In this document: positions 1,807 to 32,299 of the stretch, piece after piece
How positions within the stretch are numbered: the stretch's first letter is position 1
How the letters are laid out: each line of letters opens with the position of its first letter
DNA from: an uncultured Rhodobacterales bacterium
GTDB taxonomy: Bacteria > Pseudomonadota > Alphaproteobacteria > Rhodobacterales > Rhodobacteraceae
Length of the DNA: 64,000 bases
Assembly: GCA_903873585.1 (NCBI GenBank)
Contig: CAIQOV010000022.1
Location: forward strand, 1-64,000
Direction: 5' to 3'
Translations under genes and position numbers: made by a program
Notes under the pieces: generated by a model
What the model saw: only the letters and a program-made list of their open reading frames with translations
The model's database searches: none
Told to the model about the DNA's origin: nothing

Positions 1807-3297
1807 TCAGTGCACGGCGGCGTACATGATCGTCTCTTCGGTTGCGTCCTGGGGGGCGAACTCCTCGACGATGCGGCCCTGGCGGGCGACAAGAATGCGG
1901 TCGGACAGGTTCAGAACCTCGGGGAGGTAGGAGGAGATGACCATGACGGCGAGGCCGTCATCGGCAAGGCCCTTGATGATGGCGTGGATCTCGGCAATCG
2001 CGCCCACGTCGACGCCGCGGGTGGGTTCGTCGAAGATCACCAGTTTCGGGCGCTGGACCAGCGATTTGGCGACCACCACCTTTTGCTGATTGCCGCCCGA
2101 CAGTTCGACCACCCGCGCCCCCGGATCGATGGCGCGGATGTTCAGCTTGTCGCGCCAGGTGCTGGCTAAATCGCGCATCTGGGCGGGGCTGACGATACGG
2201 GGGCCACGGGCGGTCAGGTGCCCGGCAAAGATGTTTTCGGCGATGGACATGCCTTCAAAAAAGCCCTCGATCTTGCGGTCTTCGGTGACGTAGACCACGC
2301 CGTCCAGCATGGCCTGACGCGGCATTCGGTAGCGGACGGCGCGGGAAAAGAGGCTGACCTTGCCGCCGTGAAAGAGGTTACGCTTCAGGACCCCCGCCAC
2401 GACCTTGGCGGTTTCGGTGCGGCCTGACCCGATCAAGCCAAAGATGCCGGTCACTTGGCCCGCATAGACGGAAAACGAGGTGTTGCGGACCATCGAGCCC
2501 ATCGACAGGTTCTGCACCGACAGGACAAGGTCCTGCGGTGGGCGGGTTTGGCCATCCTTGCGGGTGTAAAGCTCGTCCGACAGGGTGCGGCCCACCATCG
2601 CGCGGATGATCGAGGCGCGGTCAAAGCTGCTTGCGGCGTCGGTCGTCACGATTTCGCCGTCACGCAGAACGGTGATACGGTCGGCGATTTGCAGCGCCTC
2701 TTCAATGGCGTGGGAGATGAAAACCACGGCGACGCCGCTGGTTTTCAGACGCTCGATCAGGGCGAAGAAGTGGTGTTTCTCTTCTGGGGTCAGGGCGGCG
2801 GTGGGTTCGTCAAAGATGATCAGCCGAGCCTTGCGCAACACGGCGCGGGCGATTTCGACCATCTGTTTCTGGGCCGCGCCAAGGCCCGCGACCGGGGTCA
2901 TGGGATCGACGTTGAAGTTCAGGGACTGCAGGAATTGCTGGGCGGCGATATACATGCCGCGCAGGCGGGTGAAGAAATGTTCCTGACCCAGATAGAGGTT
3001 CTGCGCCACGGTCATCGAGGGCACGAGGCTGGTTTCCTGAAAGACCATTGCAAGGCCGAGGTTCAGCGCCTCGGCCGGGCTACGCAGGGTGACGGGGGTG
3101 CCGTCAACGGCGATGGTGCCGGAGGTGGGGGCGGTGATGCCGACCATGACCTTGGTCAGGGTGGATTTGCCGGCGCCGTTTTCGCCGACAAGGGCATGAA
3201 CCTCGCCCGCAAGCACGGTGAAATCGACGGCGCGGATCGCGGGGACGCCAAAGTATTCCTTGGTGACCTGGGTCAGGCGGACAAGGGGTTCGGTCAT
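1807..3297 (-). CDS. Sugar-type ABC importer ATPase, cassette A (double NBD)
   Basis: 496-residue RbsA/MglA-like protein with two fused nucleotide-binding domains that powers cassette A. NBD1 has Walker A GENGAGKST (residues 38-46), a divergent signature (LGAAQKQ) and Walker B LIIFDEPTA. NBD2 has the relaxed Walker A usual for this family (GLIGSGRTE), a full LSGGNQQKV signature and LVIFDEPTRGVD. It is the last gene of the cassette and its ATG overlaps the preceding stop by four bases (ATGA). Its paralogue at 30809-32299 is the same length and closely similar along its entire length. Family and role are certain; the substrate is not known. Confidence 0.95.
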   Translation of the reverse strand: MTEPLVRLTQVTKEYFGVPAIRAVDFTVLAGEVHALVGENGAGKSTLTKVMVGITAPTSGTIAVDGTPVTLRSPAEALNLGLAMVFQETSLVPSMTVAQNLYLGQEHFFTRLRGMYIAAQQFLQSLNFNVDPMTPVAGLGAAQKQMVEIARAVLRKARLIIFDEPTAALTPEEKHHFFALIERLKTSGVAVVFISHAIEEALQIADRITVLRDGEIVTTDAASSFDRASIIRAMVGRTLSDELYTRKDGQTRPPQDLVLSVQNLSMGSMVRNTSFSVYAGQVTGIFGLIGSGRTETAKVVAGVLKRNLFHGGKVSLFSRAVRYRMPRQAMLDGVVYVTEDRKIEGFFEGMSIAENIFAGHLTARGPRIVSPAQMRDLASTWRDKLNIRAIDPGARVVELSGGNQQKVVVAKSLVQRPKLVIFDEPTRGVDVGAIAEIHAIIKGLADDGLAVMVISSYLPEVLNLSDRILVARQGRIVEEFAPQDATEETIMYAAVH

Positions 3298-4328
3298 GGC
3301 AGGTCGCCTTCGACGCTGAGGATGGCGTTGCCGCCGTGCGAGGCAACCAGCACGCGGTTCCCCATGTCCAAGGCGGCGGTGATGCCGTGGCGGGTGCCGT
3401 CGGCGCGGCTGTGATAGCTGCGGATCGGTCGGAAGCGGGCGTCAAGGCGCACCAGCAGGCCATAGGAATTGGACGGGGCCCAGGGTTTGGCAAAGCCGTG
3501 GGTCCGCAGCGCCCCGCCCATCATGGGTTCAAGGAAGCTTTTGGGCGGCGACAGGGCGGGGGCGAGCCAGTTGTCGGGTTCAATCTCGGCCATCATGCGG
3601 GTGCAATAGCGGCGTTCGCGCAAGACAAACTCGACCAGTTGGCCGCGCGGGGCGAAAATGGACAGCCACCAGCCGTTTTGCGCCGGTGACAGGCGGGCGG
3701 GGTAACCGGGAAGGTCGGCGAGGATGGGGTTTGGCTGGCCAAGGCGGATCAGGCGGTGGCGCCAGCTTTCCGCGATGACGATGCCGCCCTCGGTGATCGC
3801 GATGCCGTTGGGCCATGCAAGTCCCGTGGCGAGGGGTTTTGGCGGGCTGCCGGGGGCGATTTGCCAGACGGCCCCGCTGGAGCCGCGCTGCATCAGGTCG
3901 TGCTTCCACTGGGCCGGGGTATTGTGGCTGGACCCTTGGGTGGCGATGAGGGTGTCGCCCATGAACGCTAGGGCCGTGGGGCATGGGACGGGGAGGGTAG
4001 TTTCGGTCACGCCTTGCAGGAGGAGGATGTGGTTCGGCTGGCCCACCGCGAGCCGGTCGCCCTGGGCGGCGAGGCTGGTGACCGGTTCGGCAAAGTGGCG
4101 GAAGGGTTCGGTTGTGCCAGCAGGGCCAAGACGGTAAACGGTATTGCCGCTGGAGACATAGGTGGCGTCGCCTTGGGCGATGTCGTTGGGGGTAGGGATC
4201 TGTGCGATCAGGTCGGCGCGGTCGAGCCGAGTGTTGGGCGACAAGGCGCCGTCCATGGGTGGGACGGTCACGGCGGCGTCGCCTTGTCCGAGGAAGCTGT
4301 CAACGCGGGTGCGGAGCCATGCGATCAT
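3294..4328 (-). CDS. Stand-alone beta-propeller protein (SMP-30/strictosidine synthase-like), cassette A
   Basis: 344-residue protein without signal peptide or membrane segment, so probably cytoplasmic. It contains the strictosidine-synthase/SMP-30 blade signatures: GLAWPNGIAI, ESWRHRL and LPGYPARLS, which match the equivalent ligand-gate blades of lactonases and arylesterases of the six-bladed propeller class. I start it at ATG 4328, which overlaps the upstream stop (ATGA); the open frame continues upstream but only as a shadow of the fusion gene. Cassette B has an equivalent gene (29769-30812) in the same position. A lactonase or ester hydrolase acting on the imported compound is the simplest inference; a non-enzymatic scaffold is possible. 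Confidence 0.8.
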   Translation of the reverse strand: MIAWLRTRVDSFLGQGDAAVTVPPMDGALSPNTRLDRADLIAQIPTPNDIAQGDATYVSSGNTVYRLGPAGTTEPFRHFAEPVTSLAAQGDRLAVGQPNHILLLQGVTETTLPVPCPTALAFMGDTLIATQGSSHNTPAQWKHDLMQRGSSGAVWQIAPGSPPKPLATGLAWPNGIAITEGGIVIAESWRHRLIRLGQPNPILADLPGYPARLSPAQNGWWLSIFAPRGQLVEFVLRERRYCTRMMAEIEPDNWLAPALSPPKSFLEPMMGGALRTHGFAKPWAPSNSYGLLVRLDARFRPIRSYHSRADGTRHGITAALDMGNRVLVASHGGNAILSVEGDLP

Positions 4329-6445
4329 TTGGGGGCGCCCCAATAGGCGGATTGTGAGGTCCAGCTTTGATCGGCGTCGGGCAGGCGGATGCGGCCGATG
4401 CGGTTGTTGAAGATGCCACCAAGGTAAAGCCAGCCCTTGTGTTCGCGCATCGAGGTGACCTGGGGGTGGCTGCCGCCGTCGCCGTCCCACAGGGATTGCA
4501 GCACTTGTCCCGTCAGGTCGAATTTGATCACCCCGCCAGTGTTGAGGTTGGGGAAAACCCATTGGTCGCGGGCGACCTGCATGGCCATGCGGCGGCGGAA
4601 GCCGGGCATGCGTTGCGACAGATCGAAGGCCGGGGTGCGCATGCCGATCATGGCCAGCCAGAAGGTGCCATCCGAGGCGCGGTTGATGTTGTCGGGATAG
4701 CCCGGCAGATCGGCGATGACGACTTCGGTGCGGCCTTTTTTCGGGCCGTCAAAGTAGTATCGGCTGACACGACAGCCCCAGGTTTCGGCGTACAGGAAGG
4801 ATTGGCCGTCGGGCACCATGCAGATGCCATTGGGGAATTGCAGGCGAGGCAGGACGGTGCGCGAGGACCCGTCGTGGGGGTCATAGCAGATGATGCGGCC
4901 ATTGCCGCGCCCTTCCAAGGCGTCGATCATCCAGTCGTGGAGGGCGTAGCGGATGGTGGCTTCGGAGAAGAAAACGCGGCCATCGGGGGCGATGTCCAGA
5001 TCGTCTGCGAGGCGCATGCGGCTGTCGTCGATGATGGAAAACAGGGTGCGGTTGGTTTCGTCCGAGAGTTTGACGACTTCGCGGTTGGGGCGGACCATGT
5101 AGAGGCCCATGCCGGCGACGCAGGTCACGAGGTTGCCGCCGCGGTCGAAGGCAAGGCCAAGGGGTTGGCCGCCGATATGGACGTAGGGTTCAACGCGCGT
5201 GTAGTCGGGGGCCATCAGGCGCAGTATGTTGCCATCGCGGCTGCCGGTGTAGAGGTTGTCATCGGCGTCCAGGATGACATCCTCGGGGCCATCCAACAGG
5301 CCAAGGCCGATGGGTTCGGCGGTGGCGAGGTGGTCGTTGACGGCATAGGGGGTGGCGGCGCCTCTGCGGGCGTCGGGCAGCGGCGGCAGTTCGAAATAGG
5401 TGGGGGCGACGTAGGTTTGGTCCAACACCTTGCGTTTGTTCTTCACCCAGCGGACGTCAATGGCGACGGCCAGCAAGAGGATGATGCCAAGGGCGAGGGG
5501 GGAAGAGCCGCTGGGCAGGTTGAAGCGCAGCAGGCTGTTGTTGATGACGACGACGATGGCGACGCCGAGGACGGTCTTGACGACCGAGCCGCGCCCACCG
5601 CCGAGCGAGGTGCCACCCAGGACGACAGCGGTCAGGATGGTGATCTCCAGGCCCACGCCGGTTTCGGCACCCAGGCTCATCAGGCGGGCGGCGTAGAATA
5701 CACCGGCAAGGGCCGCGAGGGTGCCAGAGGCGACATAGGTCAGGCAGACCGTACGACGGACGTCGATACCCGAGTTATGGGCCGCGCGGCGCGATCCGCC
5801 GACGGCGATGATGTGCCACCCGGGGCGCAGGCGGGTCAGGACGACATGGACCGCGACGGCCAGGGCGACGGCGGTCAGAAAGCTGACCGACATGCCGTAC
5901 ACGGTGCCGAAGGCCAGGTAATCCCAAAAGGCGGAAAAGATCGGGGCGGCGCCGATTTCCTGAGAGTAGCTGAGCAAAAGGCTGTCAACCAAGGCGCGCA
6001 CGACGATCAGGGTGACAAGCGTGGTCAGGAAGGCGCGCAGGCGCAGGTAGCCCACAAGGATGCCATTCACGAGTCCGACCAATGCGCCAGACAACAAGGC
6101 AATGGGGATGGCAACACCCATCGGCAGGCCTGCCCAGCCAACAAGGGCGATCATCACCAGATTGGCCAAGGCAAAGACCGACCCGACCGAAAGGTCGATG
6201 CCGCCCGCCATCACGACGATGGTCAGACCCAGGCCCATCAGCAGATACTCCCCCACCGTCTGGGACAGATTGCCGAGATTGCCAAGGGTCAAAAGGTTCG
6301 GGACCAGCGTGCCGAAAACGGCCAGAAGGACGGCCAGCATCAGGACCGGGACGGCGTTGTCGATCCAGGGTTTGGACAGGATCTCGCCCACCACAGTGTT
6401 GGGGATCAGGCGATACCGCCAGCGGACAAGGTCGTCACGGGTCAT
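4325..6445 (-). CDS. ABC permease fused to C-terminal beta-propeller (SMP-30/APMAP-like), cassette A
   Basis: 706-residue fusion. Residues about 25-340 are an RbsC-type permease (BPD_transp_2) with the hallmark GGIDLSVGSVFALANL and GGTSLGGGRGS loops. After a roughly 30-residue linker, residues about 375-706 form a strictosidine-synthase/SMP-30-like propeller: DDLDIAPDGRVFFSEAT, GRIICYDP, QFPNGICM, AETWGCR and LPGYPDNI are typical blades. The start is ATG 6445, which gives exactly the length of its paralogue in cassette B. RbsC-like permeases usually have both ends in the cytoplasm, which would put the propeller at the inner mouth of the channel. The fusion is real, not an artefact, as it occurs twice. 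Hydrolysis of substrate on entry is inference. Confidence 0.88.
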   Translation of the reverse strand: MTRDDLVRWRYRLIPNTVVGEILSKPWIDNAVPVLMLAVLLAVFGTLVPNLLTLGNLGNLSQTVGEYLLMGLGLTIVVMAGGIDLSVGSVFALANLVMIALVGWAGLPMGVAIPIALLSGALVGLVNGILVGYLRLRAFLTTLVTLIVVRALVDSLLLSYSQEIGAAPIFSAFWDYLAFGTVYGMSVSFLTAVALAVAVHVVLTRLRPGWHIIAVGGSRRAAHNSGIDVRRTVCLTYVASGTLAALAGVFYAARLMSLGAETGVGLEITILTAVVLGGTSLGGGRGSVVKTVLGVAIVVVINNSLLRFNLPSGSSPLALGIILLLAVAIDVRWVKNKRKVLDQTYVAPTYFELPPLPDARRGAATPYAVNDHLATAEPIGLGLLDGPEDVILDADDNLYTGSRDGNILRLMAPDYTRVEPYVHIGGQPLGLAFDRGGNLVTCVAGMGLYMVRPNREVVKLSDETNRTLFSIIDDSRMRLADDLDIAPDGRVFFSEATIRYALHDWMIDALEGRGNGRIICYDPHDGSSRTVLPRLQFPNGICMVPDGQSFLYAETWGCRVSRYYFDGPKKGRTEVVIADLPGYPDNINRASDGTFWLAMIGMRTPAFDLSQRMPGFRRRMAMQVARDQWVFPNLNTGGVIKFDLTGQVLQSLWDGDGGSHPQVTSMREHKGWLYLGGIFNNRIGRIRLPDADQSWTSQSAYWGAPK

Positions 6446-6467
6446 CGGAGGGGTCCTTCGGGGAAAG

Positions 6468-6491
6468 GGGCGGCCCTGTGGCGGGCCGCCC
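6468..6491 (-). promoter_or_regulatory. Perfect GC hairpin after binding-protein gene, cassette A
   Basis: A 9-bp perfect stem (GGGCGGCCC / GGGCCGCCC) with a six-base loop lies in the 53-base gap between the binding-protein stop and the fusion start. No long U-tract follows on the minus strand, so it is better read as an mRNA-protecting or partial attenuating hairpin than a full terminator. Cassette B has a hairpin at the same place. Such elements commonly let the binding protein be made in excess of the membrane parts. Confidence 0.6.
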
Positions 6492-6498
6492 GCAGAGG

Positions 6499-7515
6499 TT
6501 AGCCGCCGATCTGGGCCAGCTCTTCCAGGGTCCAGCACGACGAGGGCGTCATGTTTTCCTTGGTTATGCGGATCAGGGGCGAGACCAGGTCAAAGGGCTT
6601 GCTGCCCGGTTCCGGCATGGTCTGCAGCAGGGTGCGGATGATGGCGTTCAGGTCGCGGCCCTGACCTGCGGTGTTGTAGCTGGTGTAATGGGAAAAATCG
6701 CCCGCAGCGATCTTGTCGCAGGCCGATTCGCGCGCGCCACTGCCCGAGGTGATGACAGCGACCTTCCCTTGCAGGTTCGCCTCTTTCACAGCCGAGGCGA
6801 TGCCCGCGTCGGCCACATCCCAGAAGCCGACGATGCCGCAGATATCGGGATTCTGCTGCAGGACGGTGGTGGCGATCTGATAGGCCTTGGTGGCATCCCA
6901 ATCTGCGGCCTGATTGGACACGACGGTGATTTCGGGATGATTCTTCAGCGCCTCATCGATGCCGGCCATTTGCAACAGGCTGGCGGGGGCGGTCAGGGCG
7001 CCTTGGATGATGGCGACCTTGCCATTCTTACCGCTATCCTTGCCGCAGGCCTGGACCATGCCCTCGACTGCATTGCGGCCCATCTCGTTCCAGTCCGGAC
7101 CCATGTACGCGTCGCTGGGAATCTCTGAGCGCTGCTGGGTCTGGACGGTCAGGATGCCCGCCGCGATGGATTTTTGCACCATGCGGTTGTAGGAGCGGTT
7201 ATCGATGTTCTCGATGATCAGGATGTCGGGCTGTTCCTGGATCAGCGAATCGATGGCCTGAATTCCGGCCTCGATGCTCCAGTTCGGGTCGCGCACGATG
7301 ACTTCATAGCCCAGTGCTGCCCCCTGCCGTTCCATTGCGATCCGCCAGGCCTGGGTTTCGTTGAACCCCATGGCAATCGGCACGAAGCCGATCTTCTTGC
7401 CTTTGAGCGCGTTGTAAAAGCCCGCGCTGGGCGAGGCGTCTTGCGCGGCAAGGGGCCCCGCGACCACGGCAAGGCAAAGGGCCGAGGCAGTGACAAGTTT
7501 GGTGGTGATCTTCAT
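6499..7515 (-). CDS. Periplasmic binding protein (RbsB-like), cassette A
   Basis: 338-residue substrate-binding protein of the sugar-binding Peripla_BP_4 type. An N-terminal Sec signal peptide (hydrophobic stretch ending GPLAAQ, residues about 8-25) is followed by the mature two-lobe fold, with KKIGFVPIAMGFNETQAW opening lobe 1. A conserved cysteine pair near the C-terminus (SACDKIAAGD, SSCWTLEEL) may form a disulphide. AGGGAGG precedes ATG 7515. It delivers substrate to the two permeases of cassette A. The paralogue at 26578-27588 shares the same motifs and the same PSSCWTL(E/D)E tail. The fold suggests a polar ring-like ligand, but the ligand is unknown. Confidence 0.9.
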   Translation of the reverse strand: MKITTKLVTASALCLAVVAGPLAAQDASPSAGFYNALKGKKIGFVPIAMGFNETQAWRIAMERQGAALGYEVIVRDPNWSIEAGIQAIDSLIQEQPDILIIENIDNRSYNRMVQKSIAAGILTVQTQQRSEIPSDAYMGPDWNEMGRNAVEGMVQACGKDSGKNGKVAIIQGALTAPASLLQMAGIDEALKNHPEITVVSNQAADWDATKAYQIATTVLQQNPDICGIVGFWDVADAGIASAVKEANLQGKVAVITSGSGARESACDKIAAGDFSHYTSYNTAGQGRDLNAIIRTLLQTMPEPGSKPFDLVSPLIRITKENMTPSSCWTLEELAQIGG

Positions 7516-7551
7516 TTTTGTATCCTCCCTGATTTGGTTGTGTCGGTGGTC

Positions 7552-8529
7552 TTAGATGTCCCCCTGTTGGGATGTCTGCTCGTCCCTTGGGTTCACGAGG
7601 GAATCGATGGTCAGGGCGGCCAATAGGATCAGCGCCTTGATCACGTTCTGGGTGGTGTAGCCCAGGTTCATCATGGTCATCCCGTTCAGAAGGATGCCGA
7701 TCAGCAGGGTGCCGACGATGACGCTGCCCGCCCCGCCGCGCCCACCTGACAGGCTGATGCCGCCCAGAACGGCCACGAGGATGATGTCATAGACATAGGT
7801 AGACCCCACGATGCGGGTGTTCATGGTGGCGACCAGCGCTGCCATCAGCAGACCCGCGACCAGTGCCACCAGCGAGGTCAGCACATATTGCCCGACGATC
7901 ATCGGGCGGATCGGCACGCCGGTGATGCGGGCGGCCTGGGGATTGTCGCCCATCATGTAGATGTAACGTCCTTCGCGTGCGCCGCGCAGGAACAGGTGGC
8001 CCAGACCGCAGACGGCGGCAAAGCACAGGACCGATACGGGTATTCCCAAAGGCGCGGCGGTGGCGATAGTGTTCAGCCATTGCCAATCGTCGGGCAAGTA
8101 GTTGACGTCCGAGGCCAGCAGGAACACCCGGCCAAAGCCATAGATCGCGGTGCCCATGGCGAGGGTGGCAAAGATCGGCGGGATTTCGACATAGGCGATC
8201 AGAACGCCGTTGATCACCCCAACCGCGATGCTGAACAGCAGCGCAAAGCCAAATGCATGCGCGAACGAAGCGCCTGTGTTCATCTCGGCCAGCATCCAGG
8301 CGACCGAGACGGCCATTGAGGCGACCATCGACAGATCAATCCCGCGTCCGATGATCGACAGGGCCATGCCCATTGCAAGAATGCCCAGGATGGACACGTT
8401 TTGCAGCAGGCGCGAGACATTGCCCGCCGACAGGAAATCGGGGACCAGCACGGAAAACGTGGCAAAGGCCAGCACGGCGATGCCAAGGACGATACGGGCC
8501 TGGGTGAGTTTGGACCGGCTGCGGGTCAT
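7552..8529 (-). CDS. ABC importer permease (RbsC-like), cassette A
   Basis: 325-residue polytopic permease of the BPD_transp_2 family, with about nine or ten hydrophobic segments and the family motifs GRGIDLSMVASMAVS and GGISLSGGRGG. It is the first permease of the cassette and has no propeller extension, so it presumably pairs with the fused permease 4325-6445 as a heterodimeric channel. ATG 8529 overlaps the stop of the acyl-CoA synthetase gene (ATGA), which puts CoA activation and uptake in one transcript. It ends in a polar QQGDI tail that its cassette B paralogue also has. Confidence 0.92.
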   Translation of the reverse strand: MTRSRSKLTQARIVLGIAVLAFATFSVLVPDFLSAGNVSRLLQNVSILGILAMGMALSIIGRGIDLSMVASMAVSVAWMLAEMNTGASFAHAFGFALLFSIAVGVINGVLIAYVEIPPIFATLAMGTAIYGFGRVFLLASDVNYLPDDWQWLNTIATAAPLGIPVSVLCFAAVCGLGHLFLRGAREGRYIYMMGDNPQAARITGVPIRPMIVGQYVLTSLVALVAGLLMAALVATMNTRIVGSTYVYDIILVAVLGGISLSGGRGGAGSVIVGTLLIGILLNGMTMMNLGYTTQNVIKALILLAALTIDSLVNPRDEQTSQQGDI

Positions 8530-10115
8530 GATTTGGCTGGCGCCTCCCACGCCGCAGCGGTGCCGGAGGCGCGCAAGGTCGCCTTGACGGTTTTGCCGGT
8601 GGGGGTTTTGGGCAGGTCGGTGGACAGAATCTCGATATAACGGGGCACCATATAGGCGGGCAGACGCGGGATCAGATAGGCGTAAAGGTCGGGGGCGGTC
8701 AGGGTGGCGCCGGGTTTCAGGGCGACGACGGCCTTGATGTCATCCTCGCCCATCCCCGATGGCACGGCGACGGCGGCGGATTCCAGAACGTCGGGGTGGC
8801 TGTCAAGTTCCCGTTCGACTTCGAAGGACGAGATGTTTTCGCCGCGGCGGCGGATGGCGTCCTTCAGGCGGTCGACAAAGTAGAAATTGCCCGCGGCATC
8901 GGTGCGGAAGGCGTCGCCGGTGTGGAACCACAGGTTGCGCCAGGCCTCGACTGTCTTGGTGGGGTTCTTCCAATAGCCAAGGCAGAAATCCCATGGGCGG
9001 TCGGCGCGCAGGACCAGTTCGCCGGTACTGCCGGGCGGCAGGGGGGTGTCGGTGTCATCGACGATACGGGCGGTGATGCCGGGGCGGGGGCGGCCGGCCG
9101 AGGTGGGGTTGGTCAGGGTGAAGCCGTCCGAGCAGAGGGGGACGGAAACCTCGGTCATGTTGAACCAGGTGGCGACTTGCAGGCCAAAGCGGGATTTGAG
9201 GGTGTCAAGGTCGGCGGGCAGCGGGATTACGATGGCCTTGGTCAGTGTGTGGTCGCGGTCATCGGGGCTCGGCGGGCGGGACAGCAGGAAATTGGGCATC
9301 GAGGACAGAAGGATGGTCATGGTGGCGCCGTGGCGGCGCACGTCTGGCCAAAAGGCGCTGGCGCTGAAGCGGGGGCGGATGGCCATTGTTGCGCCCGCCA
9401 GCAGGGTCAGGCCGAACATCTGTGACAGTCCGACATGGAACATCGGGAGGAACATGTAGAACACGTCATCTGGGGCGCACCACCCGGCAGGAACCTCGGC
9501 TGTCGTCCAGGCTTGGGCATAGGAATAAAGCACGCCCTTGGACGGGCCTGTGGTGCCCGAGGTGTAGAAAATAGCCATCGGGTCATGGGGTTGCACCACG
9601 CGGGGCAGAGGTGCGGCATTGGTGCTGTGCAGGGCGGCGGCGTCAGACCAGCCCCAGGGGGCGGGAGTGTCAGGGGCGGCGCCGTCAAGCACGGCGATCT
9701 GGCGCAGGTGCGGCAGGTCGGCGGCGAGGGCAATCCAGACGGGCACGTGATGGGCGGCAACGATGGCAAGCGTCGCTTCGGAATCATTGACCTGATGGCG
9801 GAGCATGGCCCCGTGATAGGCGTCATTGACCGGGACCATGATCGCGCCCAGTTTGCAGAGAGCCAGCCAGATCAGGATATGATCGATCCCGGACGGGATC
9901 ATCAGCAGAACCCGGTCACCCTGGGCCACCCCTGCGGCGGCAATACCGTTGGCCCAGCGGTTGACGTCAGCATCAGCCTCGGCCCAAGTCAGAGAGCGGT
10001 CGTCCATCACAAGGCAGGGCTTTTGGGCAGCCGATGCGGCGCGGTCTTCCAGCAGATAGTGAAAGACCCGACCAAAGAAGGGCTGATCGGTTGGGGCGAT
10101 ATCTGGCGTGGTCAT
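8526..10115 (-). CDS. Acyl-CoA synthetase (AMP-binding, class I adenylate-forming)
   Basis: 529-residue ligase that would form an acyl-AMP and then the CoA thioester of a carboxylic acid. The phosphate-binding loop FYTSGTTGPSKGV, the hinge region (WFHTGDAF...DRLKDAIRRRGENIS) and the C-terminal catalytic lysine motif PKTPTGKTVK are all present. It is the first gene of the minus-strand operon and overlaps the permease of cassette A by four bases. Sequence features place it with the crotonobetaine/carnitine-CoA ligase and cyclohexanecarboxylate-CoA ligase-like enzymes rather than with acetyl-CoA synthetases. The acid is not known; co-transcription with an importer implies activation of the imported compound. 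Confidence 0.9.
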   Translation of the reverse strand: MTTPDIAPTDQPFFGRVFHYLLEDRAASAAQKPCLVMDDRSLTWAEADADVNRWANGIAAAGVAQGDRVLLMIPSGIDHILIWLALCKLGAIMVPVNDAYHGAMLRHQVNDSEATLAIVAAHHVPVWIALAADLPHLRQIAVLDGAAPDTPAPWGWSDAAALHSTNAAPLPRVVQPHDPMAIFYTSGTTGPSKGVLYSYAQAWTTAEVPAGWCAPDDVFYMFLPMFHVGLSQMFGLTLLAGATMAIRPRFSASAFWPDVRRHGATMTILLSSMPNFLLSRPPSPDDRDHTLTKAIVIPLPADLDTLKSRFGLQVATWFNMTEVSVPLCSDGFTLTNPTSAGRPRPGITARIVDDTDTPLPPGSTGELVLRADRPWDFCLGYWKNPTKTVEAWRNLWFHTGDAFRTDAAGNFYFVDRLKDAIRRRGENISSFEVERELDSHPDVLESAAVAVPSGMGEDDIKAVVALKPGATLTAPDLYAYLIPRLPAYMVPRYIEILSTDLPKTPTGKTVKATLRASGTAAAWEAPAKS

Positions 10116-15189: not shown

Positions 15190-15554
15190 CCCCCAGCATC
15201 ACCGTCAGCCAAGCGATGATTGACGCTTATGCGGCGATCTCGGGGGATTTCAACCCGGTTCACGTGGACCCGGAGTTTGCCGCTGGAACGCCATTTGGCC
15301 AGACCATCGCGCACGGCTGCATTCCCATGGAGCCGATCTTTCAACTGGTGCAGGGGCGACTGGGAGTGGCGGTGCTGCCGCAGGGGACGGGAATGACGCT
15401 GCGCTATCTGCGGCCCTGTCATCCGGGCGATACGATCGAGATTGTGGTCAAGGCGGACGGCCCGGAGGAGGGGATGGCGTTTCAATGCGTCAATCAGCGG
15501 GGCGAGGCGGTGATCGAGGGCGTGGTAAGGTTGGCGCAAGGAGGGGCGGGCTGA
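15186..15554 (+). CDS. MaoC-family enoyl-CoA hydratase, catalytic half
   Basis: 122-residue hot-dog enoyl-CoA hydratase 2. The hydratase-2 motif is intact, with catalytic Asp21 and His26 in SGDFNPVHVDPEFA, followed by PFGQTIAHG. It starts with GTG overlapping the preceding stop. It would hydrate an alpha,beta-unsaturated acyl-CoA to the (R)-3-hydroxyacyl-CoA, probably together with the non-catalytic partner encoded just upstream. Its stop overlaps the next start as TGATG, so translation is likely coupled. Confidence 0.85.
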   Translation: MTPSITVSQAMIDAYAAISGDFNPVHVDPEFAAGTPFGQTIAHGCIPMEPIFQLVQGRLGVAVLPQGTGMTLRYLRPCHPGDTIEIVVKADGPEEGMAFQCVNQRGEAVIEGVVRLAQGGAG

Positions 15555-17104: not shown

Positions 17105-17115
17105 AGGAGCCTGTC

Positions 17116-18297: not shown

Positions 18298-18298
18298 C

Positions 18299-20460: not shown

Positions 20461-20472
20461 GAGGGAAATGAG

Positions 20473-22103: not shown

Positions 22104-22136
22104 CCGGGACCACGTCGCGAAAGGGAGGGAAGAAGG

Positions 22137-25490: not shown

Positions 25491-25545
25491 CACTTTCAAC
25501 AAATGTAGACGCGAGTCAAGGCGGTTGCACGGGGGGCGGGCAGGC

Positions 25546-26529
25546 ATGTCAGGCAGCAGCGGACGCGGGCGGTTTGGCCAGGAAGAGATCATCTTCGCGA
25601 TTGCCGTGATCGTGTTTGGCGTGTTCTCGGTTATGGTTCCCGATTTCCTGTCGGCGGGCAATATTGTGTCGATGGTGCAAAGCGTGTCGGTGCTGGGAAT
25701 TTTGGGCCTGGGCATGGCGATCACCATTCTGGGCCGGGGGGTTGACCTGTCGATGGTCGCCTCGATGTCGGTGGCGATTGCATGGATGCTGGTGCAACTG
25801 AACGCTGGTGCGCCGTTGGTGCAGGCATTGCCGATGGCGATTGCTTTCAGCGTTCTCGTCGGCATCATCAACGGGGTCCTGGTGGCCTATGTCGAGATTC
25901 CAGCAATTTTTGCAACCTTGGCGATAGGGGTTACGGTTTACGGGTTTGGCAAGTTCTTCCTGGTCGAATCGGATGTGAACCACCTGCCCGAAGCATGGCG
26001 CTGGTTGGCGGATATGGTGGCGGCGCGGCCATTGGGCGTGCCGGTGCCGGTGATTGCCTTTCTGGGCTGTGCGGCCGTGGCGCATCTGGGCCTGCGCTAT
26101 CTGCGCGACGGGCGGTTCATCTATGCGATGGGCGACAATCCCATTGCCGCCCGCACGACCGGGGTTCCGGTGCGGGTGATGATGGTTCTGCAATATGTCA
26201 TCTCGGCGTTGATCGCACTGCTGGCGGGGCTGATCATGACCATGCTGGTGACCAGCATGAACACCCGGATCGTGTCGGGCACGCTGGTTTACGATGTCAT
26301 TCTGGTCGTCGTTCTGGGCGGCATATCGCTGTCGGGCGGGCGCGGCGGCATCCTGAGCGTGGTGGTGGGCACCCTGCTGATCGGAATCATGCTGAACGGC
26401 ATGACCATGCTGAACCTGACCTACACCGCCCAGAACGTCATCAAGGCGCTGATCCTGTTGTTGGCGCTGGTGCTGGATACGCTGATCAACCCGCGCGACG
26501 AACAGACGGCGCAGCAGGGAGATATCTGA
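25546..26529 (+). CDS. ABC importer permease (RbsC-like), cassette B
   Basis: 327-residue polytopic permease closely similar to 7552-8529, with GRGVDLSMVASMSVA, GVPVRVMMVLQYVISAL and GGISLSGGRGG, and the same C-terminal PRDEQTAQQGDI tail. ATG 25546 is preferred to the upstream in-frame TTG 25525 because GGGGGGCGGGCAGG precedes it. It is the first gene of cassette B and would pair with the fused permease at 27652-29772. Unlike cassette A, no acyl-CoA synthetase gene precedes it. Confidence 0.92.
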   Translation: MSGSSGRGRFGQEEIIFAIAVIVFGVFSVMVPDFLSAGNIVSMVQSVSVLGILGLGMAITILGRGVDLSMVASMSVAIAWMLVQLNAGAPLVQALPMAIAFSVLVGIINGVLVAYVEIPAIFATLAIGVTVYGFGKFFLVESDVNHLPEAWRWLADMVAARPLGVPVPVIAFLGCAAVAHLGLRYLRDGRFIYAMGDNPIAARTTGVPVRVMMVLQYVISALIALLAGLIMTMLVTSMNTRIVSGTLVYDVILVVVLGGISLSGGRGGILSVVVGTLLIGIMLNGMTMLNLTYTAQNVIKALILLLALVLDTLINPRDEQTAQQGDI

Positions 26530-26577
26530 CCCCGGATCGGGGCTGACACTGGAAGATCAATCAAGGGAGGAAACCTG

Positions 26578-27588
26578 ATGGATTACAAGAAGATAGTGAA
26601 GATGGGGCTGGCTTGTGCGGTTCTGTCAATGACAGCGGGTGTGGCCTTGGCGCAGGACTCGGTTGCGCCCGGCTATTATGAAGCGTTGAAGGGTAAGAAG
26701 GTGGGCTTTGTGCCGATCTCGATGGGTTTTGACCTGACGCAAGGCTGGCTGGCGGGGATGCAGCGGCAAGCGAATGAACTGGGGTACGAGATCATCGTGC
26801 GCGACCCGAACTGGAGCGTAGAATCGGGCATTCAGGCCATCACCTCGTTGATCGAGGAGGCGCCGGACCTGTTGATCATCCAGAACAACGACAACCAATC
26901 CTATAACCGTTTGGTCCAGCAGGCCGCTGCCGCTGGCATCCCGGTCATTCAGGTGCAGCAAAGTGTCGAGACCAAGTCGGACGCTTATATCGGCCCCGAT
27001 TGGTTCAACATCGGCACGGTGACGGCGCAGGCTTTGGTCGACAAGTGCGGTGCGGGCACGTCTGGCAAGATCGCCGTGGTTGAGGGGGCAACAGCAGCTC
27101 CGGCGTCGATCCTGATGAAGGCCGGGATCGAGGCGCTGGTGGCCCAGCACCCCGAGGTCAAGATCGTGTCCAGTCAGGCGGCGGATTGGGATGCGTCCAA
27201 GGCCTTTGCCATCACCGCGACGGTTCTGCAGCAAAACCCCGACCTGTGCGGTATCGCCGGGTTCTGGGATGTGGCGGATACCGGCACGGCGGGGGCGATC
27301 CGCGAGGCGGGGCTGGAGGGCAAGGTTGTCTTGGCCACTTCGGGTGGGGGCAGCCGGGATGCGGGCTGCGCCAAGGTCACATCGGGCGAATTTGCGGTCT
27401 ATCACAGCTATAATGTGGCCGGTCAGGCGCGCGATCTGAACGATGCGATCAAGATGCTGTTGCAGGCCAATTTGCCCGCGGGTTCGGCCCCGTTTGCGCT
27501 GCTGAGCCCGTTGGTGCAGGTGACCAAGGACAACATGACCCCGTCGTCATGCTGGACCCTGGACGAGATCGGCAAGACCGGCGGTTGA
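26578..27588 (+). CDS. Periplasmic binding protein (RbsB-like), cassette B
   Basis: 336-residue sugar-type substrate-binding protein with a Sec signal peptide (residues about 1-25, cleavage after VALAQ). Lobe 1 opens with KKVGFVPISMGFDLTQGW; the cleft segments VRDPNWSVESGIQA, QAADWDASKA and GFWDVADTG are nearly the same as in the cassette A protein, so both probably bind related ligands. A GGGAGGAAA site precedes the ATG. A terminator-like hairpin follows its stop at once. Confidence 0.92.
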   Translation: MDYKKIVKMGLACAVLSMTAGVALAQDSVAPGYYEALKGKKVGFVPISMGFDLTQGWLAGMQRQANELGYEIIVRDPNWSVESGIQAITSLIEEAPDLLIIQNNDNQSYNRLVQQAAAAGIPVIQVQQSVETKSDAYIGPDWFNIGTVTAQALVDKCGAGTSGKIAVVEGATAAPASILMKAGIEALVAQHPEVKIVSSQAADWDASKAFAITATVLQQNPDLCGIAGFWDVADTGTAGAIREAGLEGKVVLATSGGGSRDAGCAKVTSGEFAVYHSYNVAGQARDLNDAIKMLLQANLPAGSAPFALLSPLVQVTKDNMTPSSCWTLDEIGKTGG

Positions 27589-27598
27589 TCTGACATAT

Positions 27599-27630
27599 GC
27601 CGGGCGGGTTGCGGCCCGCCCGGCATTTTT
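27599..27630 (+). terminator. Intrinsic terminator-like attenuator inside cassette B
   Basis: A perfect 10-bp stem (GCCGGGCGGG / CCCGCCCGGC) with a six-base loop is followed by ATTTTTA. This is a textbook intrinsic terminator, but it lies between the binding-protein gene and the rest of the cassette. It should end part of the transcripts, giving excess binding protein. The hairpin at 6468-6491 is its counterpart in cassette A. Confidence 0.75.
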
Positions 27631-27651
27631 ATGGACCCGATGGAAGCAGGC

Positions 27652-29772
27652 ATGGCAAGCGACCTTTTCACCCGCTGGCGATACAAACTTGTCCCGGACA
27701 AGATCGTAGGCGAGATCCTGTCGAAATCATGGGTCGATAACGCCATCCCCTTTCTGTTCCTGATGATCGCGCTGGCCGTCTTTGGTGCGCTGCTGCCCAG
27801 CATGTTCACCGCAGGCAGCATGAGCGGGATGACCCGGACGGCGGGTGAATATCTGCTGGTGGCGCTGGGACTGACGATTGTGATCATGGCGGGTGGGATT
27901 GACCTGTCGGTCGGGTCGGTTTTTGCGCTCGCGAACCTGTCGATGCTGGCGCTCGGCGGGGTTGTGGGCCTGCCGTGGGGCGTGGCTGCGCTGGTGGTGC
28001 TGGCAATGGGCGGGCTGATCGGGTTGGTCAACGGGGTGCTGATTGGCTATCTGCGGCTGCGGGCGTTTCTGACGACGCTGGTCATGCTGATCATCGTGCG
28101 GGCGGTGACGGATACGTTGCTGCTGTCCTACTCCAAAGACATCACCAGCGTTCAAATCATGAGTCCGGTCTGGGAATTTCTGGCCTTCAAGACCGTATTT
28201 GGCGTGGCCCCCAGCTTTCTGGTGGCTTTGGCACTGGCCGCTCTGGCGCATTTCGTGCTTACCCGGTTGCGGCCCGGATGGCATATTCTGGCGGTCGGCG
28301 GATCGCGGCGTGCGGCGCATAATGCGGGCATCGACGTGCGGCGGACGGTGTGTCTGACCTATGTGATTTCGGGTGCGTTGGCGGCGGCTGCGGGGATATT
28401 TTATGCAGCTAGACTGGCCAGTCTGGGTAATGACACTGGCCTTGGGCTGGAGATTACCATTCTGACGGCGGTCGTTTTGGGCGGCACCAGTCTGGGTGGC
28501 GGGCGTGGGTCGGTGTTCAAGACTGTGCTGGGCGTGATCATCGTGGTGATCATCACCAATAGCCTGATCCGGCTGGGCCTGCGTTCGGGGGCATCGTCTC
28601 TGGTTTTGGGGACGATCCTGCTGATGGCCGTGGCGATTGATGTGCGCTGGCTGAAGAACCGGGCCAAACTGCTGGCACGGTCCTATGTCGCGCCCACCTA
28701 TTTCGCTTTGCCGCCGCTGCAAAAGGTCAGCCGCGCGCCGGATACGCCCTATGCGATCAATGACCTGTTGTCGGATGCCGAGCCGATTGGTGTGGGTCAG
28801 GTCGACGGCCCCGAGGATGTGATCTTGGACGCCGAGGGGAACCTGTATTGCGGCAGCCGGGACGGCGACATCATCCGGTTTCTGGCCCCCGACCATAAGG
28901 TGCGCGAGGTTTATGCGCATATCGGCGGGTCCACCTTGGGACTGGCCTTTGACCGAGATGGCAGTTTGCTGGTCTGCGTGGGGGGGATGGGTCTGTACAA
29001 GGTCACCCGCGCCCGCGAGGTGATCAAGCTGTCGGATGAAACCACCCGGTCGTGGCTGTCGATTGTCGATGACAGCCGGATGAGGCTGGCCGACGATCTG
29101 GATATTGCGCCGGATGGGCGGGTCTTTTTCTCGGAAGCGACGATCCGGTATGAAATGCACGACTGGATCATTGACGCGCTGGAAGGGCGCGGGAATGGGC
29201 GGATCATCTGTTACGATCCGCGTGACGGGTCATCGCGGACCGTGCTGTCGGGACGGCAGTTTCCGAACGGGATTTGCATGGTGCCGGATGGACAATCCTT
29301 CCTGTTTGCCGAAACCTGGGGCTGTCGGATCAGCCGCTTTTACTATGACGGGCCAAAGCGGGGCCGGGTTGAGGCGGTTATTCCCGATCTGCCGGGGTAT
29401 CCTGATAACATCAACCTCGCTTCGGACGGCAATTTCTGGTGCGGTATCATCGGGATGCGCGCCCCCGCCTTTGACCTAGCGCAGAAGATGCCCAAGTTCC
29501 GCAAGCATATGGTTATGCAGATCGCGCGCGATGAGTGGCTGTATCCCAACATGAACACCGGCGGGGTGATCAAGTTCGATCTGTCGGGCAAGATTGTGCA
29601 ATCGCTGTGGGATGGGGTGGGCGAGCGGCATCCGCAGGTCACCTCGATCCGCGAGCACAAGGGGTATCTGTATCTGGGCGGCATCTTCAACAACCGGATC
29701 GGGCGCTATAAAATCCCCGGGGCCGACCCGGAGTGGACGGGACCGGGCGCCTATTGGGGGGCCAAGCCTTGA
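27652..29772 (+). CDS. ABC permease fused to C-terminal beta-propeller, cassette B
   Basis: 706-residue paralogue of 4325-6445 with the same two-part build. An RbsC-type permease (residues about 20-345; GGIDLSVGSVFALANL, GGTSLGGGRGS) is joined through a short linker to a strictosidine-synthase/SMP-30-like propeller (residues about 375-706; DDLDIAPDGRVFFSEAT, QFPNGICM, AETWGCR, LPGYPDNI, NTGGVIKFDL). ATG 27652 is preferred to 27631 because it gives the same length and N-terminal alignment (RWRYKLVP) as cassette A. Conservation of both halves and the junction in two diverged copies shows that the fusion is maintained by selection. Confidence 0.88.
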   Translation: MASDLFTRWRYKLVPDKIVGEILSKSWVDNAIPFLFLMIALAVFGALLPSMFTAGSMSGMTRTAGEYLLVALGLTIVIMAGGIDLSVGSVFALANLSMLALGGVVGLPWGVAALVVLAMGGLIGLVNGVLIGYLRLRAFLTTLVMLIIVRAVTDTLLLSYSKDITSVQIMSPVWEFLAFKTVFGVAPSFLVALALAALAHFVLTRLRPGWHILAVGGSRRAAHNAGIDVRRTVCLTYVISGALAAAAGIFYAARLASLGNDTGLGLEITILTAVVLGGTSLGGGRGSVFKTVLGVIIVVIITNSLIRLGLRSGASSLVLGTILLMAVAIDVRWLKNRAKLLARSYVAPTYFALPPLQKVSRAPDTPYAINDLLSDAEPIGVGQVDGPEDVILDAEGNLYCGSRDGDIIRFLAPDHKVREVYAHIGGSTLGLAFDRDGSLLVCVGGMGLYKVTRAREVIKLSDETTRSWLSIVDDSRMRLADDLDIAPDGRVFFSEATIRYEMHDWIIDALEGRGNGRIICYDPRDGSSRTVLSGRQFPNGICMVPDGQSFLFAETWGCRISRFYYDGPKRGRVEAVIPDLPGYPDNINLASDGNFWCGIIGMRAPAFDLAQKMPKFRKHMVMQIARDEWLYPNMNTGGVIKFDLSGKIVQSLWDGVGERHPQVTSIREHKGYLYLGGIFNNRIGRYKIPGADPEWTGPGAYWGAKP

Positions 29773-30812
29773 TCGGTTGGGTCACAGACCGGATTGACCG
29801 GTTCCGCGGGCGGGGAGCCTATGCCGCGACAGTGCCGCCGATGGACGGGGCGCTGCGGCCCAACACAAGGCTGGAAGATGCGGATGTGGTGGCGCGGATC
29901 GCGGCGCCGGACAATCTGGTAGTGTACCGGGGGCAGGTGCTGTTTTCCTCGGGCGCCACGATCATGGCGCTGGATTTGGCCAGCGGTGCGATGACGGACT
30001 GGCGGCGCTGTCCAACCGAGGTGTCGGCGCTGGCAGTTCAAGGGGAGACTTTGGCCATTGGGCTGACGGATGGCAGTTTGATTTTGGCGGGGGACAGTGA
30101 CAGGACGGTCAAGGCACCGGGGGGGTGCATCACAGCGCTGGTCGATGGGGGGGATGGGCGACTGATCCTGTGTGTAGGATCGGCGCGAAACCCGTCTGGC
30201 GAGTGGAAACGGGATTTGTTGCAGGGCGGGGCGACGGGGGCGCTGTGGTCCATTGGCCTTAATGGTGTGGCACAGAAGTTGAGTGACGGTCTGGCCTGGC
30301 CCAGTGGAGCGGCGGTGGCGGGCAGCGGGGTTGTGGTGGTCGAGGCGTGGCGGCACCGGCTGACACAGTCCGGCGCGCCGCTGGTGACCGACCTGCCCGG
30401 CTACCCCTCGCGCTTGTCACCCGCGCCGGGGGGGTGGTGGCTGACGGTCTTTGCCCCGCGCAACCAGTTGATCGAACTGGTGCTGCGCGAACGCGATTAC
30501 CGTGAAAGGATGATGCACGAGGTGGCGCCGGATCACTGGATTGCCCCCAGCCTGTCACCTGCCGTAGATTTCAACGAGCCGATGCAGGGCGGCGCCATCC
30601 GCACGCATGGCATCATCAAACCCTGGGCACCGACGCGGTCTTACGGTCTGCTGGTGCGGCTGGATGCGCGATTTCAACCGATTGCCAGTTATCACAGCCG
30701 GGCAGATGGGCGGTTCCACGGGGTGACCTCGGCCTTGCAAGTGGGGGACAAGGTGTTGGTGACCAGCCGGGGCGGCAATGCTGTCTTGGCCCTGACCGAG
30801 GTGCAGCCATGA
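29769..30812 (+). CDS. Stand-alone beta-propeller protein, cassette B
   Basis: 347-residue SMP-30/strictosidine-synthase-like protein matching 3294-4328. It opens MIGWVTDRIDRF and carries GLAWPSGAAV, EAWRHRL, LPGYPSRLSPA and the C-terminal RSYGLLVRLDARF blade. The start is TTG 29769, whose position overlaps the fusion stop (TTGA) exactly as ATG 4328 does in cassette A. There is no signal peptide. A soluble lactonase, esterase or substrate-handling partner of the fused propeller is likely; no enzyme activity can be proven from sequence. Confidence 0.8.
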   Translation: MIGWVTDRIDRFRGRGAYAATVPPMDGALRPNTRLEDADVVARIAAPDNLVVYRGQVLFSSGATIMALDLASGAMTDWRRCPTEVSALAVQGETLAIGLTDGSLILAGDSDRTVKAPGGCITALVDGGDGRLILCVGSARNPSGEWKRDLLQGGATGALWSIGLNGVAQKLSDGLAWPSGAAVAGSGVVVVEAWRHRLTQSGAPLVTDLPGYPSRLSPAPGGWWLTVFAPRNQLIELVLRERDYRERMMHEVAPDHWIAPSLSPAVDFNEPMQGGAIRTHGIIKPWAPTRSYGLLVRLDARFQPIASYHSRADGRFHGVTSALQVGDKVLVTSRGGNAVLALTEVQP

Positions 30813-32299
30813 CCACGCCTTTGGTTGAGATGACCGCGATCACCAAGGAATACCGCGGCGTTCCTGCGGTGAAGAATGTCAGCTTTACCGTGCTACCCGC
30901 CGAAATCCATGCCCTGCTGGGCGAGAACGGGGCGGGCAAATCGACCCTGACCAAGATCATTGCCGGGGTCACCGGGGCGAGTTCGGGCATCCTGAAGGTT
31001 GGGGGACAAGAGGTCGCCTTCCGCTCGCCATCCGAGGCGCTGGCGCATGGCGTGGCGATGGTGTTTCAGGAAACCAGCCTGGTGCCGTCGATGACGGTGG
31101 CGCAGAACCTGTATCTGGGCAACGAAAAGTTCTTCAACCGTTTGCGGGGCCTGACAATTGCTGCGCAGCAATTCCTGCAAACGCTGAACTTCAACGTTGA
31201 CCCCTTGGCGATGGTGGCGGGTCTAGGGGCCGCGCAAAAACAGATGGTCGAGATTGCACGCGCCGTGTTGCAAAAGGCCCGGCTGATCATCTTTGACGAG
31301 CCGACCGCGACCCTGACGCCCGAGGAAAAGCGCTATTTCTTTGCGCTGGTCAAACGGCTGCAGCAGGACGGCGTGGCGATTGTGTTCATCAGCCATGCGA
31401 TTGAAGAGGCGCTGATGATCGCCGACCGCATCACCATTCTGCGCGACGGCGAGTTGGTGGTGACGGGTCAGGCCAGCGCATTCGACCGCGACAAGGTCAT
31501 TCAGGCGATGGTCGGGCGCACGCTGTCGGGGGCGCTGTACCAGCGGCACGCGGGCCGCGTGCGGACGCCGGGGGCCAAGGTGTTGTCGGTACAGAACCTG
31601 TCGATGGGGGCGATGGTGCGCAACACCTCATTCACCGTTTATGCGGGCCAGGTCACCGGGGTCTTTGGGTTGATCGGGTCAGGCAGGACGGAGGCAGGCA
31701 AGATCGTGGCGGGGGTGCTGAAGCGCAATTTCTTCAACGGGGGCGAGGTGCGGCTGAACGACCGCCCGGTGACTTACCGCCTACCCCGCCATGCCGTGCT
31801 GGATGGCGTGGTCTATGTGACCGAGGATCGCAAGTTGGAGGGATTCTTCGACCAGATGTCGATTGCCCAGAACCTGCATCTGGGACAACTTGCCGCCAAG
31901 GGGCCACCGATTGTCAGCCATGCCGAGATGACGGCTCTTGCCGAGGCGTGGCGCGGCAAGCTGAACATCAAGACGATCAACGCCGATGCACGGGTCATCG
32001 AACTGTCGGGCGGCAATCAGCAAAAGGTGGTGATCGCCAAATCTTTGGTGCAAAAGCCCCGACTGGTGATCTTTGACGAACCGACACGGGGTGTGGACGT
32101 TGGGGCGATTGCCGAGATTCACCAGCTGATCCAGAGCCTGGCGGATGATGGGTTGGCGGTTATGGTCATCTCGTCCTACCTGCCCGAGATTCTGAACCTG
32201 TCCGACCGCATTCTGGTGGCGCGGCAGGGGCGGATTGTTGAAGAGTTCACTCCGGCCGAGGCGACAGAGCAGAAGATCATGTATGCGGCCGTACATTAG
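30809..32299 (+). CDS. Sugar-type ABC importer ATPase, cassette B (double NBD)
   Basis: 496-residue double-ATPase, the same length as the cassette A protein. NBD1: GENGAGKST, LGAAQKQ, LIIFDEPTA. NBD2: GLIGSGRTE, LSGGNQQKV, LVIFDEPTRGVD. The NBD1 signature shows the same LGAAQKQ divergence as in cassette A, so this is inherited, not a new lesion. ATG 30809 overlaps the preceding stop. It ends cassette B; a strong hairpin and then an IS481 insertion follow. Confidence 0.95.
   Translation: MTTPLVEMTAITKEYRGVPAVKNVSFTVLPAEIHALLGENGAGKSTLTKIIAGVTGASSGILKVGGQEVAFRSPSEALAHGVAMVFQETSLVPSMTVAQNLYLGNEKFFNRLRGLTIAAQQFLQTLNFNVDPLAMVAGLGAAQKQMVEIARAVLQKARLIIFDEPTATLTPEEKRYFFALVKRLQQDGVAIVFISHAIEEALMIADRITILRDGELVVTGQASAFDRDKVIQAMVGRTLSGALYQRHAGRVRTPGAKVLSVQNLSMGAMVRNTSFTVYAGQVTGVFGLIGSGRTEAGKIVAGVLKRNFFNGGEVRLNDRPVTYRLPRHAVLDGVVYVTEDRKLEGFFDQMSIAQNLHLGQLAAKGPPIVSHAEMTALAEAWRGKLNIKTINADARVIELSGGNQQKVVIAKSLVQKPRLVIFDEPTRGVDVGAIAEIHQLIQSLADDGLAVMVISSYLPEILNLSDRILVARQGRIVEEFTPAEATEQKIMYAAVH

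Follow-up and report, generated by a model that had tools for sequence, protein, structure and literature searches.

Does an ATP-binding cassette (ABC) importer exist in which a permease carries its own hydrolase? The question is raised by a 64,000-nucleotide stretch of contig CAIQOV010000022.1 (the window), from an uncultured Rhodobacterales bacterium, in which one reading frame joins an RbsC-type permease to a six-bladed propeller of the strictosidine-synthase-like (SSL) type. A preliminary description of this stretch had read both domains as complete and had envisaged a channel that opens an incoming lactone or ester at once. The answer favored here, if only somewhat, is an importer in which a fused, metal-dependent SSL propeller hydrolyzes a lactone or ester as part of uptake. 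If the fused domain is active, the assembly would combine enzyme and importer and render uptake irreversible through cleavage of the cargo, and a cell may in this way cut certain nutrients open on arrival. Public records name such proteins either a permease or an SMP-30/gluconolactonase-type protein, and each label conceals the other half.

The presence of a complete RbsC-type permease and a complete SSL propeller in one frame is confirmed. The fusion of the first gene copy matches four Pfam families (BPD_transp_2, 3.2e-34; SSL_N, 1.7e-14; Str_synth, 2.2e-19; SGL, 2.5e-12), all exceeding curated cut-offs. A sequencing, assembly, or frameshift artefact is ruled out by a 71% identical paralogue ~21 kb away and by 49 distinct fusion proteins, which can be aligned at pairwise identities of 42–99.7% (median 53%; a few are near-identical, and one is cut by a contig end). 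With this the preliminary description is borne out on domain content, and its suggestion that other genomes be searched for the same domain order proved productive, both on plasmids and in class and phylum genome samples. The start codon of each copy has an in-frame alternative, GTG at 6538 for copy 1 and possibly ATG at 27631 for copy 2.

Each half of the protein can be assigned to a family. A BPD_transp_2 permease with about ten helices, together with a Peripla_BP_4 binding protein and a double ATPase in the same operon, places the transporter in the RbsC/CUT2 class, and SSL_N/Str_synth sequence with a six-bladed propeller fold places the C-terminal half in the SSL subgroup of the N6P (six-bladed propeller) superfamily. 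Among the matches listed, the fused permease domains score at least 200 bits and other permeases at most 137 bits. Known sugar equivalogs were considered as a source of substrate identity and set aside, as all NCBIfam scores fall far below cut-off (best 154 bits, RbsC; cut-off 398) and no sugar identity is obtained. A sequence search for a solved relative of the permease returned only one chance match (E-value 1.7).

The fused propeller is distinct from its unfused relatives, as seen in the gap in bit score and frame length when the propeller alone serves as query against 398 genomes of the phylum. The 18 matches that reach at least 447 bits all sit in open frames of at least 707 amino acids. 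The other 23 reach at most 222 bits, are 31–39% identical, and lie in frames of 354–520 amino acids, apart from one frame (G731) listed as 956 amino acids and read as 430 on inspection.

The fusion is the third gene of a five-gene cassette, ordered permease, binding protein, permease::propeller, second propeller, and RbsA-type ATPase in both copies of the window. Fifty stretches were examined (the window twice, 5 plasmid records, 13 genome-contig loci, and 30 stretches from sampled genomes), and a script count gives 52 fusion places, 46 with the whole order. Three of the remaining six are cut by contig ends (L014, L016, L087) and one, in L080, by the end of the stretch; the last two are pieces of one broken fusion gene (L073, 8432–10584; two frames) with the order otherwise the same. 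In this count, the L080 operon is whole in L081, where the unfused permease itself is cut by the stretch end; L075 is whole despite a split second propeller; and L026, with only a fusion start in a 121-residue frame, is left out.

Of 16 matching plasmid records, 15 span at least 80% of the query, and hosts with full-length fusions include Rhizobium, Shinella, Sulfitobacter, Salipiger, Celeribacter, Paracoccus, Paraburkholderia, and Pantoea. Full-length fusions also stand at 12 of 14 genome-contig loci, in Pseudorhodobacter, Roseiarcus, Methylocapsa, Mangrovicella, Zhengella, Prosthecomicrobium, and others. In a sample of the window's class the fusion occurs in 10 of 385 genomes, and one further genome (G179) has a stand-alone propeller only. 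In the phylum sample, the widest taxonomic sample searched, it occurs in 11 of 398 genomes, all 11 in the window's class; the window's genome is included in both counts. One genome, G376, holds five fused permease::propeller frames (L080, L081, L150, L151), two of which are left out of the cassette-order and ligand counts as extra frames.

The fused propeller retains the four ligand positions of the SMP-30/PON/DFPase class in 49/49 distinct fusions, with Asp or Asn at the second position (Table 1); the fusions with Asn481 form exactly one clade of the tree, with 100/100 support. The propeller has 52 invariant columns of 310, including E388, N539, and D585, against 29 of 317 in the permease. 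TGW6, a plant SSL protein, carries E, N, N, and D at the corresponding columns. Strictosidine-synthase chemistry is rejected as a candidate, since the synthase alignments examined have Gly in the N539 and D585 columns, where the fusions keep Asn and Asp. A passage of one review states that SSL proteins retaining the four ligands are more likely hydrolases (PMC4215206). The 50 best Foldseek matches to the propeller include STR, DFPase, PON1, and the lactonase RPA3624. Titles of DFPase structure entries list mutants of E21, N120, N175, and D229, the metal ligands of that enzyme. Together these comparisons support a putative site of hydrolase rather than synthase type, in agreement with the hydrolase assignment of the preliminary description.

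The neighboring second propeller provides an internal comparison. It has no Pfam match in either window copy, and profile comparison relates it to the fused propeller with a probability of 100% (E-value 4.6e-40, 21% identity). Its model has a predicted template modelling score (pTM) of 0.78, and a fold search retrieves the same fold as for the fused propeller. The gene overlaps the stop codon of the fusion by four bases in each copy (ATGA in copy 1, TTGA in copy 2), and a four-base overlap recurs in 8 of 10 other aligned loci; in L019 and L021 the first Met lies one codon later. None of the 50 second propellers, two of them partial (L016, L075), retains all four ligands, and Asp is absent from the D585 column in all 49 that extend across it, so the second propeller lacks the ligand set expected of an N6P hydrolase. 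Its ligand loss demonstrates that loss is possible, and hence that retention in the fused propeller is selective. Both propellers, one without ligands, are present wherever a stretch extends far enough to show both. The preliminary description, in its account of the fusion, had mentioned neither this degenerate gene nor the second cassette.

The proposed mechanism combines these features into a five-gene RbsC-class ABC importer, one permease of which bears a domain of the SSL branch, predicted to be a metal-dependent hydrolase in the cytoplasm. The binding protein would deliver a neutral lactone or ester, and the permease pair and the ATPase would import it. The tethered propeller would then hydrolyze the cargo to a charged hydroxy- or carboxylic acid that could not leave, and the acid would be activated to a coenzyme A (CoA) thioester by a neighboring ligase, CoA-transferase, or degradative 3-hydroxy-3-methylglutaryl-CoA (HMG-CoA) reductase. 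The second propeller, which lacks the metal site, would most likely sit on the opposite half of the asymmetric transporter and pair there with the fused propeller, as a structural or gating partner. In the window, the cargo may be an ester or lactone of the acid used by the adjoining acyl-CoA ligase. A fuller form of this mechanism is tentative, conceivable rather than probable: vectorial hydrolysis in which a single polypeptide transports a neutral lactone or ester and opens it to a trapped acid, the dead second propeller is a dedicated partner of the transport cycle, and the cassette of one clade is the lactone or ester counterpart of TRAP-driven mevalonate uptake.

The strongest competing explanation, although improbable, is that the fused propeller binds the imported compound with its metal but without cutting it and acts as a cytoplasmic gate that responds to product level, with the second propeller as partner lobe. 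The constant pairing of a ligand-bearing and a ligand-less propeller would suit such a gate, as would a propeller more invariant than its permease, and regulatory domains on ABC importers are described in a passage of PMC11466899. However, the domains described in that passage are attached to the ATPase and not to the permease. A pure sensor would also not need the full hydrolase-type ligand set that the fusions keep, and the second propeller demonstrates that the site can be lost.

The fate of the cargo is approached through the neighboring genes. Acyl-CoA genes were sought in 12–20 kb stretches around cassettes and around ordinary RbsC-type loci. They lie near 11 of 26 test cassettes compared with 2 of 40 ordinary loci (Fisher p = 3.1e-4), and near 8 of 13 in a second cassette set, where three of the eight positives (L010, L011, L022) contain a gene used as query. 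The test cassettes come from 18 genomes; the controls are 36 loci from 12 of these and 4 from the window's genome, all of them the better-scoring ordinary permeases among the matches listed. Limited to the 12 genomes that yield both, the counts are 5 of 17 cassettes and 2 of 36 controls (p = 0.03). The bias is a lead rather than a clean test, and modest when matched by genome. FGGY sugar kinases are near 1 of 26 and 0 of 13 cassettes compared with 4 of 40 control loci. Wider neighbor tallies of 85, 74, and 79 proteins, made from simple gene calls that include antisense shadows, are not used as frequencies. The first set holds 81 of 125 upstream candidates and 4 genes of the window, the second 72 of 118 downstream candidates and 2 from record annotation, and the third 79 of 115 candidates at the other reductase loci, none from L170. 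A hand-assigned AMPlig grouping in the tree is likewise given no weight.

A further association concerns degradative HMG-CoA reductase, found in 6 of 51 cassette stretches scanned and in 0 of 40 controls, and an HMG-CoA-lyase-type gene, found in 5 of 51 and 0 of 40. Five reductases score 404–443 bits against TIGR00532 (cut-off 260), and the sixth, in L080, is identified by phmmer and Pfam. The reductase is upstream of the cassette and adjoins its first gene in L011 (Shinella sp. HZN7), L019 (Mangrovicella), L021 (Roseiarcus), and L080, and lies ~1.6 kb away in L022 (Methylocapsa) and ~2.1 kb away in L088. The lyase-type gene is at the opposite cassette end in five of the six, all except L011, and on the opposite strand in L088. 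Five of the six loci are the entire membership of one 100/100 clade. Among the 385 class genomes, 12 have a reductase above cut-off, beside a cassette only in G376.

At the 11 other reductase loci, a DctM permease of the tripartite ATP-independent periplasmic (TRAP) type, confirmed by Pfam, lies within a few genes in seven (L168, L169, L170, L174–L177), compared with 0 of 6 cassette loci (p = 0.03). This count uses DctM only, as an iterated DctP search drew in other binding proteins. A MocR-like regulator recurs beside the reductase in both the cassette and the TRAP settings; in the two cassette loci scanned, it consists of a GntR domain plus an aminotransferase fold. TRAP binding proteins are reportedly restricted to carboxylates, according to a passage of PMC4646407. 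Most simply, the cassette would take the place of an acid importer where a lactone or ester is the form in which the compound reaches the cell. The substrate in the reductase clade is perhaps mevalonolactone or a mevalonyl ester. A literature search on mevalonolactone transport found nothing among the papers listed. The excess of acyl-CoA neighbors and the presence of a cassette where a TRAP importer otherwise stands lend indirect support to entry of a lactone or ester and trapping of the acid. This clade offers a concrete and inexpensive test with a named candidate substrate, and the alternative of a TRAP importer or a cassette beside the same gene would make the logic of acid versus lactone or ester uptake testable.

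Several points weigh against hydrolysis-coupled import. The putative metal site is read from the sequence, propeller loops 465–478, 497–513, and 603–635 are modelled with a predicted local distance difference test (pLDDT) below 50, and 38 of 49 fusions have Asp rather than Asn as the second ligand. Around 15 of the 26 test cassettes the queries pick up no acyl-CoA gene, and 6 of the 11 with such a gene belong to genomes that supply no control locus. The queries were picked from genes already seen near cassettes and the loci are related, which makes the p values optimistic. The weaker genome-matched contrast lowers confidence in the hydrolytic importer slightly, leaving it just on the favorable side. 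The Pantoea cassette is surrounded by sugar-type genes. No TRAP permease is seen at 4 of the 11 reductase loci without a cassette, and most genomes with the reductase manage without the cassette. Mevalonolactone itself reportedly opens rapidly in water (a passage of PMC13064465), which weakens the need for an enzyme and suggests that what is really carried may be an ester or conjugate.

The same neighborhoods bear on a second alternative, quite unlikely, in which the propeller catalyzes nothing itself and, as a scaffold for tethering or a store for metal, keeps the neighboring catabolic enzymes at the membrane. Operon linkage would be expected of a scaffold, and both propellers may form a platform, but the neighbors vary by clade (reductase, ligase, CoA-transferase, or a gene of the carboxymuconolactone decarboxylase (CMD) family) and the ligand positions stay constant. 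A CMD-family gene (PF02627) accompanies the cassette in 9 of the 11 rows that make up the N481 clade (L009, L024, L072, L079, L084, L090, L097, L099, L100) and in L150. As a clue to a lactone substrate this family was set aside; by eye, the PF02627 gene of the N481 clade carries a CxxC...H motif, which is presumably AhpD-like.

The side of the membrane on which the propeller resides is suggested by the permease. Its model shows ten membrane helices by our own count, and the family-mean number of Lys plus Arg is 4.9 (residues 1–30), 1.9 (131–140), 5.6 (201–230), 1.9 (281–290), and 4.1 (331–340) in loops read as inside, compared with 0.2 (41–60), 0 (101–110), 0.5 (161–190), 1.0 (251–260), and 0.8 (301–310) in loops read as outside. 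Ten helices with basic residues on the inside loops lead to an orientation with both termini inside, and predicted topology thus suggests a cytoplasmic propeller. The preliminary description had set the propeller on the cytoplasmic face at the channel exit. The predicted topology agrees with the face; the place at the exit is not supported, as the ATPase covers the cytoplasmic mouth in this transporter class, and the fusion model (pLDDT 74.6, pTM 0.53, part of the linker below pLDDT 50) does not fix the position of the propeller. A passage of PMC11466899 groups RbsC systems with BtuCD-like type II importers.

Stand-alone SSL relatives appear to differ in this respect. By eye, a basic front and a hydrophobic stretch stand at the start of 9 of 9, which suggests that these propellers face outward, and the fused propeller would have switched membrane sides relative to them. 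These relatives are also what speaks for a periplasmic fused propeller that prepares the substrate before import, an explanation even more doubtful than the scaffold given the ten helices, the basic residues mostly on inside-assigned loops, the KNKRK segment just ahead of the propeller, and the second propeller, which has no signal peptide by eye. Processing of the gene product into separate permease and propeller, to which a low-confidence linker (336–352) between the domains lends some plausibility, is hardly credible, as among the 52 places no gene is split at the domain border, the single broken gene is broken inside the permease and away from that border, and linker motifs are kept across 12 aligned proteins.

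The features of the window are collected in Table 1. Its two cassettes (1807–8550 and 25525–32299) are paralogous, lie on opposite strands, and together fall within 31 kb, with sets of acyl-CoA genes between them; their longest DNA segments are 72–75% identical. Divergent from the ligase-overlapped cassette 1 are acyl-CoA dehydrogenase and E1/E2 dehydrogenase genes. Adjoining cassette 2, at 15485–23995, are genes for a ligase, an acyl-CoA dehydrogenase, an ECH_2 hydrolase, a 3-hydroxyisobutyrate-dehydrogenase-like protein, and an enoyl-CoA hydratase, a set that resembles the distal part of valine or branched-acid catabolism. The two cassettes are flanked by an IS21-type IstB gene at the contig start (25–669) and an rve-integrase open reading frame (32399–34354). 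A composite transposon is not claimed, as the IstB and rve reading frames share no match longer than 15 bases.

Table 1. Coordinates of the cassette genes, fusion domains, and putative ligand codons in the window
Feature	Position	Strand	Remarks
RbsA-type double ATPase, copy 1	1807..3297	minus	Walker A motif found in first half only
Second propeller gene, copy 1	3294..4328	minus	homologous to fused propeller; ligand positions lost
Permease::propeller fusion gene, copy 1	4325..6445	minus	706 aa from ATG 6443-6445; stop 4325-4327
SSL-type six-bladed propeller, residues 377-687	4385..5317	minus	Pfam and predicted fold
Codon of D585, putative metal ligand 4	4691..4693	minus	D in 49/49
Codon of N539, putative metal ligand 3	4829..4831	minus	N in 49/49
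Codon of D481, putative metal ligand 2	5003..5005	minus	D in 38/49, N in 11/49
Codon of E388, putative metal ligand 1	5282..5284	minus	E in 49/49
Linker, residues 336-376	5318..5440	minus	basic KNKRK at 335-339, then YVAPTYFELPP
RbsC-type permease domain, residues 27-343	5417..6367	minus	Pfam BPD_transp_2; ten membrane helices, own count
Periplasmic binding protein, copy 1	6499..7515	minus	Peripla_BP_4
Second, unfused permease, copy 1	7552..8550	minus	
Acyl-CoA ligase (AMP-binding) gene	8526..10115	minus	overlaps cassette start
Unfused permease, copy 2	25525..26529	plus	
Binding protein, copy 2	26578..27588	plus	
Permease::propeller fusion, copy 2	27652..29772	plus	71% identical to copy 1
Second propeller gene, copy 2	29769..30812	plus	TTGA overlap
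RbsA-type double ATPase, copy 2	30809..32299	plus	

A literature search, with most subscription journals outside its scope, found no description of a permease::propeller fusion or of a comparable ABC importer, and the cassette is best understood against systems that share parts of it. The RbsABC, AraFGH, and MglBAC importers (CUT2) share the permease family, the Peripla_BP_4 binding protein, and the RbsA-type double ATPase, in which just one half bears a Walker A motif; the cassette differs from them in having two distinct permeases, one with a propeller, and an extra second-propeller gene. The SSL subgroup of the N6P superfamily, represented by TGW6 and strictosidine synthase and presumably including APMAP, shares the SSL_N and Str_synth domains and the fold, and TGW6 also the ligand columns, but here the propeller is joined to a ten-helix permease and is apparently cytoplasmic.

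Bacterial stand-alone SSL proteins, 31–39% identical, are the nearest unfused propeller relatives found. They differ in their single N-terminal hydrophobic stretch (9/9), and RbsC-type genes adjoin only one of the nine (L106); two others (L108, L109) have only weak ABC-ATPase matches of 58–64 bits nearby. In L106 (G731, 2203–7165), a stand-alone SSL gene with the N-terminal hydrophobic stretch is divergent from RbsB-, RbsA-, and RbsC-like genes, an arrangement that is a possible unfused counterpart of the cassette. In group translocation by the phosphotransferase system (PTS) and in vectorial acylation by FadD-type activation, the substrate is altered chemically at the inner face and thereby trapped. 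Trapping by the cassette would work alike, as a form of group translocation with hydrolysis as the trapping step; it shares no homology with those systems, and hydrolysis here would take place within the polypeptide of an ABC permease.

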